Origin: Klebsiella pneumoniae
GTDB taxonomy: Bacteria; Pseudomonadota; Gammaproteobacteria; Pseudomonadales; CAMAPQ01
Assembly (NCBI GenBank): GCA_945860125.1
Contig: CAMAPQ010000025.1
Location: forward strand, 1 to 34,209
Length of the DNA stretch: 34,209 bases
Direction: 5' to 3'
Shown here piece after piece: positions 28,968 to 34,209 of this stretch (within the stretch, counting starts at the first letter, position 1; each line of letters opens with the position of its first letter). The position numbers were made by a program, and so were the translations under genes. The notes beneath the pieces are model-generated. The model was not told the DNA's origin. It made no database searches and saw only the letters and a list, made by a program, of their open reading frames with translations.

Positions 28968-29069
28968 ATGATTGATTATAGTAAATTTCAAAAGTCGCTC
29001 ACAAATCTCATCTTGCAGTTTGAGAATGAGCAGCGTGCTCGGCAACGGCACGCTTTGAAATTTGCTTGA
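28968..29069 (+). CDS. Possible 33-residue ORF or gene remnant
   Basis: An ATG at 28968 with GTGAG seven bases upstream opens MIDYSKFQKSLTNLILQFEN and stops after 33 codons. The opening resembles the first residues of nucleotidyltransferase substrate-binding (HI0074-like) proteins as I remember them, so it may be the stump of such a gene. A hairpin inside it (AGCGTGC 29032-29038, GCACGCT 29048-29054), followed by T-rich sequence, may instead be the argG terminator. With the promoter and ops site downstream, it is part of the 308-base interval before the exporter gene. Confidence 0.3.
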   Translation: MIDYSKFQKSLTNLILQFENEQRARQRHALKFA

Positions 29070-29102
29070 TTTTTCATCAGTTTAGATTTTTTTTGCTTTG
29101 GC

Positions 29103-29130
29103 TTTACAACGCCCTATATTGTTCTATATT
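29103..29130 (+). promoter_or_regulatory. Sigma-70-like promoter of the polysaccharide export gene
   Basis: TTTACA (29103-29108), 16-base spacer, TATATT (29125-29130). The -10 region lies in a tandem pair of the 10-mer CTATATTGTT (29114-29133). Transcription would start near 29137, about 60 bases before the ops element. Confidence 0.55.
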
Positions 29131-29196
29131 GTTCCCAATCGTTTCTTTTCTCTTTATTTTGCAACCCCGTATCTGGCCAAAAAATAACCAATACTT

Positions 29197-29208
29197 GGCG
29201 GTAGCGTG
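29197..29208 (+). promoter_or_regulatory. ops element (RfaH recruitment site, JUMPStart core)
   Basis: GGCGGTAGCGTG at 29197-29208 is identical to the 12-base ops sequence at which RNA polymerase pauses and recruits RfaH in enterobacterial capsule, LPS and conjugation operons. It is on the coding strand in the 5' leader, 47 bases before the exporter start. It is followed by a T-rich stretch, as in known ops sites. This predicts RfaH-dependent antitermination through the downstream genes. Confidence 0.85.
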
Positions 29209-29255
29209 TCTTTTTCTGCTTATCTAGCACCATTATCACTAGCTGAAACTTTTTT

Positions 29256-32120
29256 ATGATTAAATTTAAACACGCCCTATTCGCTGGTCTTATTTATATT
29301 GTGTTAGGTCAGGCTTCTGCCTTAACGCCAACACCTGAGCAGATTGCCCAATTTAAAAAATTGAGCCCTGAAGAGCAGCAGCGGCTTGCGCAGTCAATGG
29401 GTGTGGATGTCAATCAGGCGAGAAAAAGCGCAGCCCCTCCTGCCGCTACCTCGATACCTAATCCTGAAGTGGTGACGCCGCGCGAAGTGAAAGCGGCTTC
29501 TAGCGCTGAAGAGGGCGGTAAAGAGTCAATTGAAAAAAACGTGAGTAAGTCAACCAAAGCAGATAAAAAAAAACTAGAAGATACGCCTCAAAAGAAAGTG
29601 ATTGGAAAAGCCCTTAAGCAATTTGGTTATGATCTTTTTGCCGGTGCCCCTAGTACGTTTGCTCCTGCTACACATATTCCTGTGCCAGTAGATTACGTGG
29701 TAGGCCCTGGCGATACTTTAGTTATTCAGTTATATGGCAAAGAAAACAGCACCAGTGAAGTGGAAATTGATCGCGAAGGCATGCTGGATTTCCCGGGTGT
29801 AGGCCCTATGTCTGTTAATGGGCTTAATTTTAATGAGCTAAAAGCGAATATTCAGCAAACTGTGCAGGAAAAAATGATTGGTGTGCAGGCGAGTGTGACG
29901 CTGGGCGCGCTTCGTTCCATTCAGGTTTTTGTATTAGGTGAAGCTTATCGCCCGGGTGCTTATACGGTAAGTGCGCTATCGACGATGATGAATACTCTTT
30001 TTGTGAGTGGCGGTGTCACGACCGTTGGCTCTTTACGCAATATTCAGCTTAAAAGAAAAGGTGAAGTGGTTTCTAATTTAGATTTATATGATCTGTTGCT
30101 TCGGGGGGATACTTCTCAGGATATTCGTGTGCAGCCGGGTGATGTGTTATTTATTCCACCTATTGGCCAAACAGCAGGTATTTCAGGTGAAGTCAGGCGG
30201 CCTGCAATATATGAATTAAAAAATGAAAAAACAACTAACGAGCTTATCGCTTTAGCGGGCGGCATGTTGCCAACGGCTTATCCTAAAGCTTCACGTATTG
30301 ATCGCATTAATGAAAAAGGCGACCGTACCTTTGTTGATGTGAATCTTATTGAGGCAAAAGGAAAAGCAAGCTTATTGCGTGATGGCGATGTTTTACAGAT
30401 TTATTCAGTGCTAGATAAAGTAGAAGATGCCGTGCTGCTTGCAGGGCATGTTAATCGCCCAGGCGGTTTTAGTTGGAAGCCGGGTCTTCGTGTGAGTGAT
30501 GTGGTGCCTAATGTGGCGGATTTATTGCCTAATCCTGATCTTGGTTTTGCTGTAATTAAAAGAGAGCTGGGTGCTAAAAGACTCATTCAAACGATAAAGG
30601 TTGATCTTGGTTCGGCGTTAACCAATAAAAAAGGAAAAGCAGATTTAGAGCTGCGCGCGCGTGATGAATTAATTATTTTTGGGTTGGATGAAAATCGTGC
30701 TGGGTCTTTAAAAGAATTAGTGAGTATTATTAAATCACAAACAGCGGTGGGCGAATATTCCAGTATTGTCCGTGTAACGGGTAACGTTAAGTTTGCAGGT
30801 GAGTATCCGCTTGTGACGGGGATGACTGTGCGTGATTTAATTGCCCTTGCGGCAGGGTTAAAGCCTGAAACTGAATTAGATTATGCTGTATTAGCGTATC
30901 GTAAAGATCGTAGTGGTGCCTTAGATATTGCCAATTTAAACTTAAATACTGCGCGTGATTTAAATAAGCTATTAAAAGCGGATGATGATTTAATTGTTTT
31001 AAGCCAGAATGAAGATCGCCAAGCGCTGTTGCAAAACATTACGGCGCATTTAGTTGAGCAGACTTCTAAAAAGCAAGATCAAGTCATTGTGCGCATTTCA
31101 GGCGCGGTAAGGTTTCCTGGTGATTATCCTGCTATTTCAGGTTTAAAAGCTTCACAGCTTATTAAAATGGCGGGCGGATTAAAAGATAATGCTTTTTCTT
31201 TAGAGGCGGAAGTCACGCGCCCTAAAATTCTTTTTAATAAAGAAAAAAAGAAAGAGGAATATGCCATTGATCACTTTGTTGTTAATCTTGCTGCGCTTTC
31301 AAGTAACGATGTAACGCTTAAAGCGCGAGATGAATTGGTGATTAAGCGTATTCCTAACTGGAAGTCTGATGCAAAAGTGGAAATTACCGGTGAGGTTTTG
31401 TTCCCTGGTACTTATCCTGTGAGAAATGGCGAGCGACTTTCTGAAGTAATTAAGCGCAGTGGCGGTTTTACTCGTTTTGCTGATGTAAAAGCAGCTGTCT
31501 TTTTAAGAAAATCTTTGCGTGAACGTGAAGAAGAAATGCTTAAAAACTTTCGGGCGCGTTTAAAGAGTGATGTGGCAAGGTTGGAGGCGAAAAGTGCAGC
31601 GAATGCAAGCACAGATCAAATTTCAAAAGCGCAAGCCGCAGGGGCGCAAATTTTAGAAAAAATGGACACGGTGCAGTCAAGCGGGCGGCTTGTTATTTCA
31701 CTAGAAGATATTTTAGATAAGAAAAAAAATGTTGAAGATATTGTTCTAAAAGAAGGTGATAAGTTAGTTGTTCCGCCGCTTCAACAAGAAGTCTCTATTT
31801 TAGGGGAGGTGAATCATCCCACAAGCTACATGTATTCTAAAAAATATAGCGGGCTTGAATATCTTAAAAAGAGTGGGGGTGCAACACGTTTTGGTGATAA
31901 AAAGCAGAGCTATGTTGTAAGAAGAGATGGCAGTGTTGATCCTTTATCTCGCCGAATTTTTATTTTTAGAGTGAGTGCCAAGATTCAGCCTGGAGATACG
32001 ATTATTGTGCCAATTGATTCGGATATTATTAGCCCGTTAACTTATTGGACAAGTATCAGCCAAGTGTTATTTCAGTTAGCAACAACCGCCGCTGCTTTGA
32101 AAACGGTGGGTGGGATATAG
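29256..32120 (+). CDS. Polysaccharide export protein with seven SLBB-like repeats (WbfF/Wza-like)
   Basis: This is probably an outer-membrane or periplasmic translocon component for surface polysaccharide. The 954-residue protein has a signal peptide ending near QASA (residue 22-23) but no lipobox cysteine. A charged Lys-rich linker leads to the poly-export domain (about 147-220, VDYVVGPGDTLVIQLYGKEN). Seven SLBB-type beta-grasp repeats follow, each opening with a G-x-V-x-x-P-G-x-Y-like strand (VLGEAYRPGAYTV, ISGEVRRPAIYEL, LAGHVNRPGGFSW, VTGNVKFAGEYPL, ISGAVRFPGDYPA, ITGEVLFPGTYPV, ILGEVNHPTSYMY). A coiled segment interrupts repeat six. The hydrophobic end ISQVLFQLATTAAAL is typical of the long Vibrio-type members that head polysaccharide loci. 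Here it is followed 5 bases later by a DUF4160 gene. Confidence 0.9.
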   Translation: MIKFKHALFAGLIYIVLGQASALTPTPEQIAQFKKLSPEEQQRLAQSMGVDVNQARKSAAPPAATSIPNPEVVTPREVKAASSAEEGGKESIEKNVSKSTKADKKKLEDTPQKKVIGKALKQFGYDLFAGAPSTFAPATHIPVPVDYVVGPGDTLVIQLYGKENSTSEVEIDREGMLDFPGVGPMSVNGLNFNELKANIQQTVQEKMIGVQASVTLGALRSIQVFVLGEAYRPGAYTVSALSTMMNTLFVSGGVTTVGSLRNIQLKRKGEVVSNLDLYDLLLRGDTSQDIRVQPGDVLFIPPIGQTAGISGEVRRPAIYELKNEKTTNELIALAGGMLPTAYPKASRIDRINEKGDRTFVDVNLIEAKGKASLLRDGDVLQIYSVLDKVEDAVLLAGHVNRPGGFSWKPGLRVSDVVPNVADLLPNPDLGFAVIKRELGAKRLIQTIKVDLGSALTNKKGKADLELRARDELIIFGLDENRAGSLKELVSIIKSQTAVGEYSSIVRVTGNVKFAGEYPLVTGMTVRDLIALAAGLKPETELDYAVLAYRKDRSGALDIANLNLNTARDLNKLLKADDDLIVLSQNEDRQALLQNITAHLVEQTSKKQDQVIVRISGAVRFPGDYPAISGLKASQLIKMAGGLKDNAFSLEAEVTRPKILFNKEKKKEEYAIDHFVVNLAALSSNDVTLKARDELVIKRIPNWKSDAKVEITGEVLFPGTYPVRNGERLSEVIKRSGGFTRFADVKAAVFLRKSLREREEEMLKNFRARLKSDVARLEAKSAANASTDQISKAQAAGAQILEKMDTVQSSGRLVISLEDILDKKKNVEDIVLKEGDKLVVPPLQQEVSILGEVNHPTSYMYSKKYSGLEYLKKSGGATRFGDKKQSYVVRRDGSVDPLSRRIFIFRVSAKIQPGDTIIVPIDSDIISPLTYWTSISQVLFQLATTAAALKTVGGI

Positions 32121-32125
32121 TATAG

Positions 32126-32362
32126 GTGCCAACTATTTTAAATATTGAAGGATACAGATTTTATTTCTATAGCAATGAGGGGCAGGAGCCTGCCCATATT
32201 CATGTGCAAAGAGAACGGGCAATTGCTAAATTTTGGCTAAAACCGGTTTTTTTGGCAAGTTCCGTTAGGTTTTCACCAAAAGAAATTCGTGATATACAGA
32301 GATTAGTAGAGAAAAATAACAGTCGATTTATTGAGGCTTGGAATGAACACTTTAAAAGTTGA
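32126..32362 (+). CDS. DUF4160 protein, first copy
   Basis: 78 residues from a GTG five bases after the exporter stop, so it is probably co-transcribed with it. The sequence has the DUF4160 pattern: opening PTILNIEGYRFYFYSNEG, the histidine motif AHIHVQRERAIAKFWLKP, and a C-terminal helix pair ending EAWNEHFKS. DUF4160 genes are regularly followed by DUF2442 genes, as here, with a 20-base overlap. That pairing resembles a toxin-antitoxin module. To my knowledge the biochemical role is unproven. Confidence 0.85.
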   Translation: MPTILNIEGYRFYFYSNEGQEPAHIHVQRERAIAKFWLKPVFLASSVRFSPKEIRDIQRLVEKNNSRFIEAWNEHFKS

Positions 32363-32588
32363 AATGCGTCCTTTGGTCAATACAGTTGATTTTTCTGATA
32401 GTGAACTTATTGTGAGGCTATTGGATGGGCGAACAATTTCAGCTCCTATCGTATGGTTTCCTAAATTGGCTAATGCATCGCAAAGTCAATTGGCTTCATG
32501 GGAAGTTTTAGGTGATGGCGAAGGCATCCACTGGCCTGATCTTGATGAAGATTTGAGTGTAAAAGGGCTATTGTTAGGGTCTCACTAG
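32343..32588 (+). CDS. DUF2442 protein, first copy
   Basis: The ATG at 32343 (GAGG six bases upstream) gives 81 residues, overlapping the DUF4160 gene. Typical DUF2442 features are a short beta-rich N-terminus (VEMRPLVNTVDFSDSELIVRLLDGRTISAPIVWFPKL) and the C-terminal IHWPDLDEDLSVKGLL motif. Similar proteins have an NE0471-type N-terminal fold. It is the presumed partner of the upstream DUF4160 protein; which of the two would be toxic is not known from sequence. Confidence 0.88.
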   Translation: MNTLKVEMRPLVNTVDFSDSELIVRLLDGRTISAPIVWFPKLANASQSQLASWEVLGDGEGIHWPDLDEDLSVKGLLLGSH

Positions 32589-32590
32589 TT

Positions 32591-32677
32591 TATGAAAATG
32601 ACAACCTATGTACCGATATTATCGCATGGGCAAAAGAACAGGCGCAGTTGCTACGTTCAGGGCGCTTTAAAGTATAA
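32591..32677 (+). pseudogene. Fragment of a DUF29 gene
   Basis: The frame starting at 32591 reads YENDNLCTDIIAWAKEQAQL, then LRSGRFKV and a stop at 32675. This matches the beginning of DUF29 proteins (Y-x-x-D-x-x-x-W-x-x-x-Q-A-x-L-L-R-x-G-R-F), normally about 150 residues. No start codon is in frame and the gene stops after about 28 codons, so it is a remnant between the DUF2442 and brnT genes. Confidence 0.65.
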
Positions 32678-32678
32678 T
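32673..32678 (+). promoter_or_regulatory. Candidate -10 box of brnTA
   Basis: A perfect TATAAT overlaps the stop of the DUF29 fragment. A weak -35 (TTGCTA, 32648-32653) lies 19 bases upstream. The expected start point is only about 5 bases before the brnT ATG at 32689, so the transcript would be nearly leaderless. Confidence 0.45.
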
Positions 32679-32688
32679 TCATATATCA

Positions 32689-32952
32689 ATGTATTTATTT
32701 GAATTCGATGATAAGAAAAGTCATGCAAATCTCGATAAGCATGGTATTGACTTTGTTGACGCCCAGCGGCTCTGGGCTGATCCTGATTTAATTGAGGTTA
32801 GGACTCGATCGACCGATGAAAAGCGTTCGCTAGTAATTGGATCAATTGAGGGCCGAGTTTGGTCGGCTATTATCACATATCGTGGCGAGGTGATCAGAAT
32901 CATCTCAGTCAGACGATCGCGTAAGGCGGAGATTGTAATTTATGAAGGCTAA
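32689..32952 (+). CDS. brnT: BrnT family type II toxin
   Basis: BrnT is a RelE-fold ribonuclease toxin neutralised by BrnA. The 87-residue product matches the family along its length: FEFDDKKSHANLDKHGIDF with the K-H-G motif at 17-19, the middle EKRSLVIGSIEGRVWSAIITYR, and the C-terminal RIISVRRSRKAEIVIYE that carries the conserved arginine pair. No ribosome site is evident. The gene overlaps brnA by 11 bases in the usual toxin-first order of BrnTA. Confidence 0.93.
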   Translation: MYLFEFDDKKSHANLDKHGIDFVDAQRLWADPDLIEVRTRSTDEKRSLVIGSIEGRVWSAIITYRGEVIRIISVRRSRKAEIVIYEG

Positions 32953-33202
32953 AGCATTAGATAAAAAGTTTGATGAAGGTGAAGTTGATATTATCGATGA
33001 CCTTGACTTATCGACACTTAAACGCCCAAATCATTTACAGCGGCGAGTGAATATGGATTTCCCCACTTGGATGATAGAATCGCTTGATCAAGAGGCGAGC
33101 CGGGTTGGTGTTACACGGCAGTCAATTATTAAAGTTTGGTTAGCCCAGCGGTTAGAGGAAGTGGCTGCTAATAAGGCGCTACAGCGAACAGCCGGCAGGT
33201 AA
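32942..33202 (+). CDS. brnA: BrnA family antitoxin (ribbon-helix-helix)
   Basis: BrnA binds BrnT and represses the brnTA promoter. The 86-residue protein has an acidic N-terminal part (EVDIIDDLDLSTLKRPN) and a ribbon-helix-helix domain: RRVNMDFPTWMIESLDQEAS, then VGVTRQSIIKVWLAQRLEE. The last residues NKALQRTAGR look like an addition encoded by a dispersed repeat running over the natural stop, a tail I have seen on unrelated small proteins. It starts inside the end of brnT. Confidence 0.92.
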   Translation: MKAKALDKKFDEGEVDIIDDLDLSTLKRPNHLQRRVNMDFPTWMIESLDQEASRVGVTRQSIIKVWLAQRLEEVAANKALQRTAGR

Positions 33203-33238
33203 TCGGTTAAAAGTGTTTGGCACCTGCTGTATTGATGA

Positions 33239-33436
33239 ATTGTTAATGGGTCAAATTTAGCCGCTGACCTTTTAAATCACTTAAAGCATCATCCTTCGGC
33301 AGATTATCAAACCTTGGCTAAATTTTTAGGTGTAAGTGAATCAACTATTAAACGCATGATTCAAAAGTTAAAACAGCAGCAAAAATTGCAACGTGTTGGT
33401 TCTAGAAAGTCAGGTCGTTGGGAAGTGTTAGGATAG
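33239..33436 (+). pseudogene. C-terminal winged-helix fragment without a start
   Basis: The frame 33239-33436 encodes SADYQTLAKFLGVSESTIKR followed by MIQKLKQQQKLQRVGSRK and SGRWEVLG, then a stop. This is a winged helix-turn-helix of the type at the C-terminus of AlbA_2/AAA_4 or Fic-type regulators. No start codon precedes the domain in frame; the first ATG falls inside the recognition helix. It is therefore a truncated gene, ending 3 bases before the second DUF4160 gene. Confidence 0.7.
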
Positions 33437-33439
33437 ATT

Positions 33440-33679
33440 ATGGCTCCTACAGTTTTCCGTGAAAGTGGCTTCCGCTTCTTTTTCTTCTCTCGTGAAGAAG
33501 CTAAAATGCATGTTCATGTGAGTCATGCTGATGGGGAAGCAAAGTTTTGGCTTGAGCCAGAAATAAGTCTTGCTCGCAGTGTCGGTCTTGATGAGCAGCA
33601 GCTTCGCCAAATACGTAAACTGATTGAGGTGCGTGAAGATGAAATCCGTAACGCTTGGCAACAACACTTTGGCAGTTGA
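33440..33679 (+). CDS. DUF4160 protein, second copy
   Basis: 79 residues from the ATG at 33440. The layout is that of the copy at 32126: APTVFRESGFRFFFFSREE, the histidine motif MHVHVSHADGEAKFWLEP, LDEQQLRQIRKLIEVREDEI, and the ending AWQQHFGS. The two copies are clearly related but diverged over most positions, so they are not a recent duplication and probably arrived separately. The DUF2442 partner overlaps by 41 bases. Confidence 0.87.
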   Translation: MAPTVFRESGFRFFFFSREEAKMHVHVSHADGEAKFWLEPEISLARSVGLDEQQLRQIRKLIEVREDEIRNAWQQHFGS

Positions 33680-33905
33680 AGTCACTCATATTTCAATGCA
33701 TGGCTTTTGGTTGCTTCTTAATAATGAAGAACTATTTCTTCCTTTTACTGAATTTCCGTGGTTTAAAAAAGCGCCTGTTGAAAAAATTATGGACGTTGAA
33801 TGGCCTCAGCCTAATCACCTGTATTGGCCAGAGCTTGATATTGATTTAACAGTTGAATCTATTCGAGACCCTGCGTCATATCCGTTGCGTGCTCGCATAG
33901 AATAG
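33639..33905 (+). CDS. DUF2442 protein, second copy
   Basis: The ATG at 33639 (GAGG nine bases upstream) gives 88 residues. The sequence includes LAVEVTHISMHGFWLLLNNEELFLPFTEFPWFKKAP and the DUF2442 end motif LYWPELDIDLTVESIRDP. It begins MKSVTLGNNTLAVE within the last codons of the DUF4160 gene, the same overlapping order as the first pair. It ends the coding part of the window. Confidence 0.87.
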   Translation: MKSVTLGNNTLAVEVTHISMHGFWLLLNNEELFLPFTEFPWFKKAPVEKIMDVEWPQPNHLYWPELDIDLTVESIRDPASYPLRARIE

Positions 33906-33978: not shown

Positions 33979-33981
33979 AGT

Positions 33982-34126
33982 ATCCGTCATTCCCGCGAAG
34001 GCGGGAATCCAGAAAAAAATTCAATATTTGATTCAGCCATTGGATATATAAAGTAAAAAAATACATTAAATCCACCTAACTTTTAAGACTAAAGACTGGA
34101 TTCCCGCCTTCGCGGGAATGACGGAT
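33982..34126. mobile_element. 145-base MITE-like unit with perfect 31-bp inverted ends
   Basis: The 31 bases at 33982-34012 (starting ATCCGTCATTCCCGCG) are the exact reverse complement of 34096-34126. Each arm is itself palindromic (CCCGCGAAGGCGGG). The 83-base interior is AT-rich and non-coding. The arm sequence is a well-known dispersed repeat in proteobacteria. A partial extra copy, GCGGGAATCCAG, lies at 34169-34180. No gene is present from 33906 to the window end at 34209. Confidence 0.85.
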
Positions 34127-34209
34127 GCTGGCTCATTTTCGTCGAATTTATTTTATGTTATCGCTTATGCGGGAATCCAGTTTCTTGGGATTTTATTTTT
34201 TAATTTTTT

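Follow-up and report, generated by a model that had tools for sequence, protein, structure and literature searches.

Organization of the locus

The window, meaning the whole stretch of DNA analysed, is the complete contig C25 of 34,209 nucleotides, and towards its end it carries a large gene for a predicted polysaccharide exporter, preceded by a short leader region. The gene upstream of the exporter is argG, as named from its translation. Between argG and the leader, at 28969–29070, there is a 33-codon open frame (MIDYSKFQKSLTNLILQFENEQRARQRHALKFA) that looks like a gene remnant and has no match in Pfam or NCBIfam. Further along on the + strand, a sigma-70-like promoter is predicted at 29103–29130 from its consensus match alone (TTTACA and TATATT separated by 16 bases, 10 of 12 matches), from which transcription would start near 29137–29140. 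A motif search of the window found an exact copy of the 12-base element ops, GGCGGTAGCGTG, at 29197–29208 on the + strand; this is the predicted pause site of RNA polymerase and recruitment site of RfaH, and it is recognised by its exact sequence and by its conservation in relatives. The next two bases, TC at 29209–29210, lengthen it to GGCGGTAGCGTGYC. The element thus lies in the sense orientation between promoter and first gene, about 60 nt from the promoter-like pair, within a leader RNA of about 119 nt (29137–29255, + strand, start predicted). No terminator-like hairpin was found in this leader, and its fold is not unusually stable compared to shuffled sequences (z = 0.42).

The exporter gene itself (29256–32120, + strand) begins with an ATG at 29256, 47 bases 3′ of ops, and has a reading frame of 954 residues that is intact over its full length. 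It matches the Pfam family Poly_export (PF02563, 56 bits, residues 143–216) together with SLBB and SLBB_2 repeats (PF10531 and PF22461), and its profile matches solved Wza structures over the ring region with an E-value of about 4e-19. An orthologue in the related genome G021 is 50% identical. By its Poly_export and SLBB domains we classify the product as a Wza-type polysaccharide exporter with a predicted role in export. A preliminary description of this DNA had claimed a perfect ops at 29197, a plausible promoter about 60 bases before it and a large polysaccharide export gene 47 bases after it, all of which are borne out. We also considered whether a missing Shine-Dalgarno sequence might point to translation assisted by RfaH; the exporter in the window lacks one, but most relatives with a nearby ops have one, and the idea was dropped.

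Downstream of the exporter, all on the + strand, a BrnT/CopG-type toxin–antitoxin pair sits between two DUF4160–DUF2442 pairs (32126–33905). The first DUF4160 gene (32126–32362) follows the exporter directly, and is succeeded by genes for a DUF2442 protein (32344–32588), a BrnT-family toxin (32689–32952), a CopG-type antitoxin that is BrnA-like by position (32942–33202; E-value 3e-4, below the Pfam cut-off), a second DUF4160 protein (33440–33679) and a second DUF2442 protein (33642–33905); all but the antitoxin are assigned by Pfam. The contig ends 2,089 bases past the exporter stop codon, in a dispersed inverted repeat (ATTCCCGC...GCGGGAAT, 33979–34171) recognised by its matches elsewhere in the genome: the last 310 bases have 84 genomic matches, the best other copy being 91% identical over 190 bases. 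This repeat could not be used to join C25 to another contig, as there are dozens of copies, and the stretches read on contigs with a copy near one end (C71, C106, C90, C2, C42, C119 and C67) show no match to the rfaH, wzz or glycan-operon genes of the relatives. The further claim that no glycan synthesis genes follow the exporter holds for the 2.1 kb present. It does not establish the gene as an orphan, since the contig stops in the repeat about 2 kb downstream and orthologues normally have wzz and glycan genes next.

The element and the search for its regulator in the genome

To judge how often such an element would arise by chance, we used a second-order Markov model of the window's composition. 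An exact GGCGGTAGCGTG is expected 0.14 times per genome and about 7e-6 times in the 250 bp of sense strand that precede any one gene; the corresponding values are 0.010 and 5e-7 for the extended motif GGCGGTAGCGTGYC, which the site in the window fits at 14 of 14 positions. The element is present as a single exact copy in the assembly (2.58 Mb in 125 contigs, 96.8% complete), and when one mismatch is allowed the five genomic sites compare with six for the reversed control pattern, which is background. Other exact sites before glycan operons, to which the preliminary description had looked for support, were sought in the assembly and not found: glycan genes elsewhere, namely the rml genes (C31), an rfbF/rfbG-like set (C3) and a cluster of wza, gumC and a kinase (C26), have no exact ops. 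The set on C3 belongs to a sugar-nucleotide cluster (L208, 1935–10555) with an epimerase and methyltransferases, adjoining a pilin-like gene and a gene for a 659-residue membrane protein.

The same assembly contains one NusG-family gene, and the gene order tuf–secE–nusG–rplK–rplA together with its NCBIfam score identify it as the real nusG. No rfaH was found in the 125 contigs by a NusG-family search, by an RfaH model or with the RfaH protein of a relative at E-values up to 10. The preliminary description had itself named the lack of an rfaH homologue as a refutation of RfaH control, and the 96.8%-complete assembly yields none; since the assembly is in 125 pieces, however, this negative result does not show that the organism lacks the gene. 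Exporter-type Wzz proteins are likewise missing from the 125 contigs by the Pfam Wzz model, its one hit being a sub-threshold GumC-like protein from the separate cluster on C26, and as a control the same model recognises the Wzz of a relative well.

Conservation in related genomes

Six exporter orthologues were aligned and the alignment was used to scan public genomes, which gave 80 loci. Of these, 33 have an exact ops 5′ of the exporter, on the sense strand in every case and within 1 kb of the estimated exporter start in 31. Aligned on the element, 32 of the 33 have a pyrimidine followed by C, the form in which TC lengthens the element in the window. In 31 of the loci with an exact site, rfaH is encoded in the same orientation at a distance of 0.1–3.4 kb upstream; in the remaining two, the contig edge leaves fewer than 300 bp of upstream sequence. 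A wzz gene is found 3′ of the exporter, again in 31 of 33. For instance, the gene order in G021 is rfaH, ops, a capD-like gene, the exporter, wzz and then glycan genes.

Co-occurrence with RfaH was tested in the 49 genomes that could be searched whole, counting ops with up to one mismatch. Of the 27 genomes in which ops lies close to the exporter, 26 encode RfaH, compared to three of the 22 without, an association (Fisher p 1.5e-9) whose independence is overstated because many of the genomes are Shewanella and relatedness was not corrected for. The same pattern is also seen in loci from Rheinheimera, Kangiellaceae and Pseudomonadales. The lone exception, G070, has no NusG-family match whatsoever and is evidently incomplete or unread. 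An apparent ops in one RfaH-less relative (G014) was rejected, as it falls within an antisense ORF and has the look of a chance match. In G033, where the exporter has a one-mismatch ops, rfaH is on another contig, so an unlinked rfaH has precedent. At the level of sequence, then, ops recurs before multi-SLBB exporters in the survey, and its presence there predicts RfaH.

Accessory genes between exporter and wzz are also seen in Shewanella, which speaks for a wzz beyond the small genes of the window. Among them is a conserved gene for a protein of about 125 residues (MRFEQLDVWKRA...), found in L113, L116, L119, L120 and other Shewanella loci and probably of the four-helix-bundle/S23 type; at the same position L127 has an apparent HepT/MntA-type pair.

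Across the order, the 14-mer GGCGGTAGCGTGYC is carried by 93 of 391 genomes. Among 30 loci that were read, the window's own included, 20 have it in an intergenic position 9–168 bp before the next ORF on the same strand, and these next ORFs, named from their translations, include sugar-nucleotide dehydrogenase, heptosyltransferase-like and capD-like genes. The sample also holds sites inside ORFs and before non-glycan genes, and because of these the 14-mer alone is no proof of an RfaH target. Some genomes of the order (G007, G402 and G246) have 9–16 copies each, which suggests large RfaH regulons. In L219, L225 and L228 the 14-mer, near position 1501, directly precedes a small HTH gene (about 110 residues, MarR-like), and a gene of the same kind follows rfaH in L095 (5394–5738).

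Discussion

The exact 12-mer, the 14 of 14 positions of the extended motif, the correct strand and spacing, and the intact exporter gene all speak for a working element. Judged by its sequence and its counterparts, the site is a genuine ops, heading a putative RfaH-type operon of a kind typical of Shewanella and other Gammaproteobacteria. In the reading that we favour, and consider probable, a functional ops heads a long surface-polysaccharide operon, and rfaH and the wzz and glycan genes are most likely unassembled or unbinned. RNA polymerase would start at about 29138 and pause at ops; RfaH would bind the hairpin formed by the non-template strand, remain on the polymerase and exclude NusG and Rho, so that transcription could continue through the exporter and the later genes of the operon. 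The pause, the hairpin, the loading of RfaH and the antitermination are steps carried over from established knowledge of RfaH and ops (PMC7593976), and we infer that rfaH and the downstream wzz and glycan genes exist in the organism beyond the assembly.

Against this reading stand the lack of both rfaH and an exporter-type Wzz in the assembly, the lack of any other exact ops in it, and argG at the place where nearly all other exporter loci with ops have rfaH. The proposal of an RfaH-controlled operon therefore stands in part: it has a real ops at the expected place and the tie between ops and RfaH in relatives, but as three assembly searches returned no rfaH, such control cannot be called demonstrated. 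That rfaH and wzz, which belong together in loci of this kind, are both missing where the contig breaks makes an incomplete assembly the likelier cause.

The main rival, which we regard as fairly unlikely, is a true loss: rfaH and the downstream genes would have been lost or displaced, with the exporter and ops left behind as a relic and ops serving at most as a plain pause site. That an assembly 96.8% complete has just one NusG-family gene fits this account, as do the toxin–antitoxin-type genes directly behind the exporter, and about 60% of Pseudomonadaceae lack RfaH in a loss described as ongoing (PMC7593976). The loss would have to be recent, however, since all 14 positions of the element still match and the 954-residue gene is intact. 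Among the other genomes surveyed, those with a nusG hit but no RfaH never retain an exact ops at the exporter.

It is much more doubtful that the bacterium has lost rfaH and keeps a perfect, working ops whose pause is read by the housekeeping NusG or another factor, which would give the exporter ops-dependent control in a cell without RfaH. The failure to find RfaH in the assembly would agree with such use, but NusG has no known requirement for ops. Among the relatives ops without RfaH occurs solely in G070, where nusG was not found either, and the chance-like site in G014 offers no second case. A functionless chance 12-mer is hardly credible: one-mismatch sites are indeed at background in the genome, but the tiny number expected upstream of a given gene and, strongly, the conservation of ops at orthologues of the exporter speak against it.

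Similar loci are known. Shewanella RfaH proteins of the CL7 group are encoded within putative exopolysaccharide operons, and toxin–antitoxin genes have been described next to rfaH, as has its repeated loss in Pseudomonadaceae (Wang et al. 2020, PMC7593976); we infer that the Shewanella loci surveyed here are these CL7 loci. Like the window, they have an exact sense-strand ops before an orthologous multi-SLBB exporter, but with rfaH just upstream and wzz next, whereas the window has argG upstream and toxin–antitoxin-type genes next, with neither rfaH nor an exporter-type wzz in the assembly. A similar picture emerges for the group 1 capsule operon of Vibrio vulnificus, where a promoter, ops and the export gene wza likewise stand at the operon head and RfaH is needed for expression of the distal genes, as established by knock-out (PMC7247339, a review), whereas for the window such dependence is predicted. 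The RfaH/ops operons of E. coli carry the same 12-base element in the leader, and their rfaH is unlinked and known to act in trans, whereas for the window none was found in the assembly (PMC7593976).

The combination of ops and exporter is thus already known, and the window is notable only for the missing regulator; it is most likely an ordinary, cut-off example of this arrangement. A perfect ops for which no rfaH is found would be of consequence only if the organism has really lost rfaH. What the locus adds to the predicted ops/RfaH regulon is a lineage of Pseudomonadales that has no close relatives among the genomes searched.
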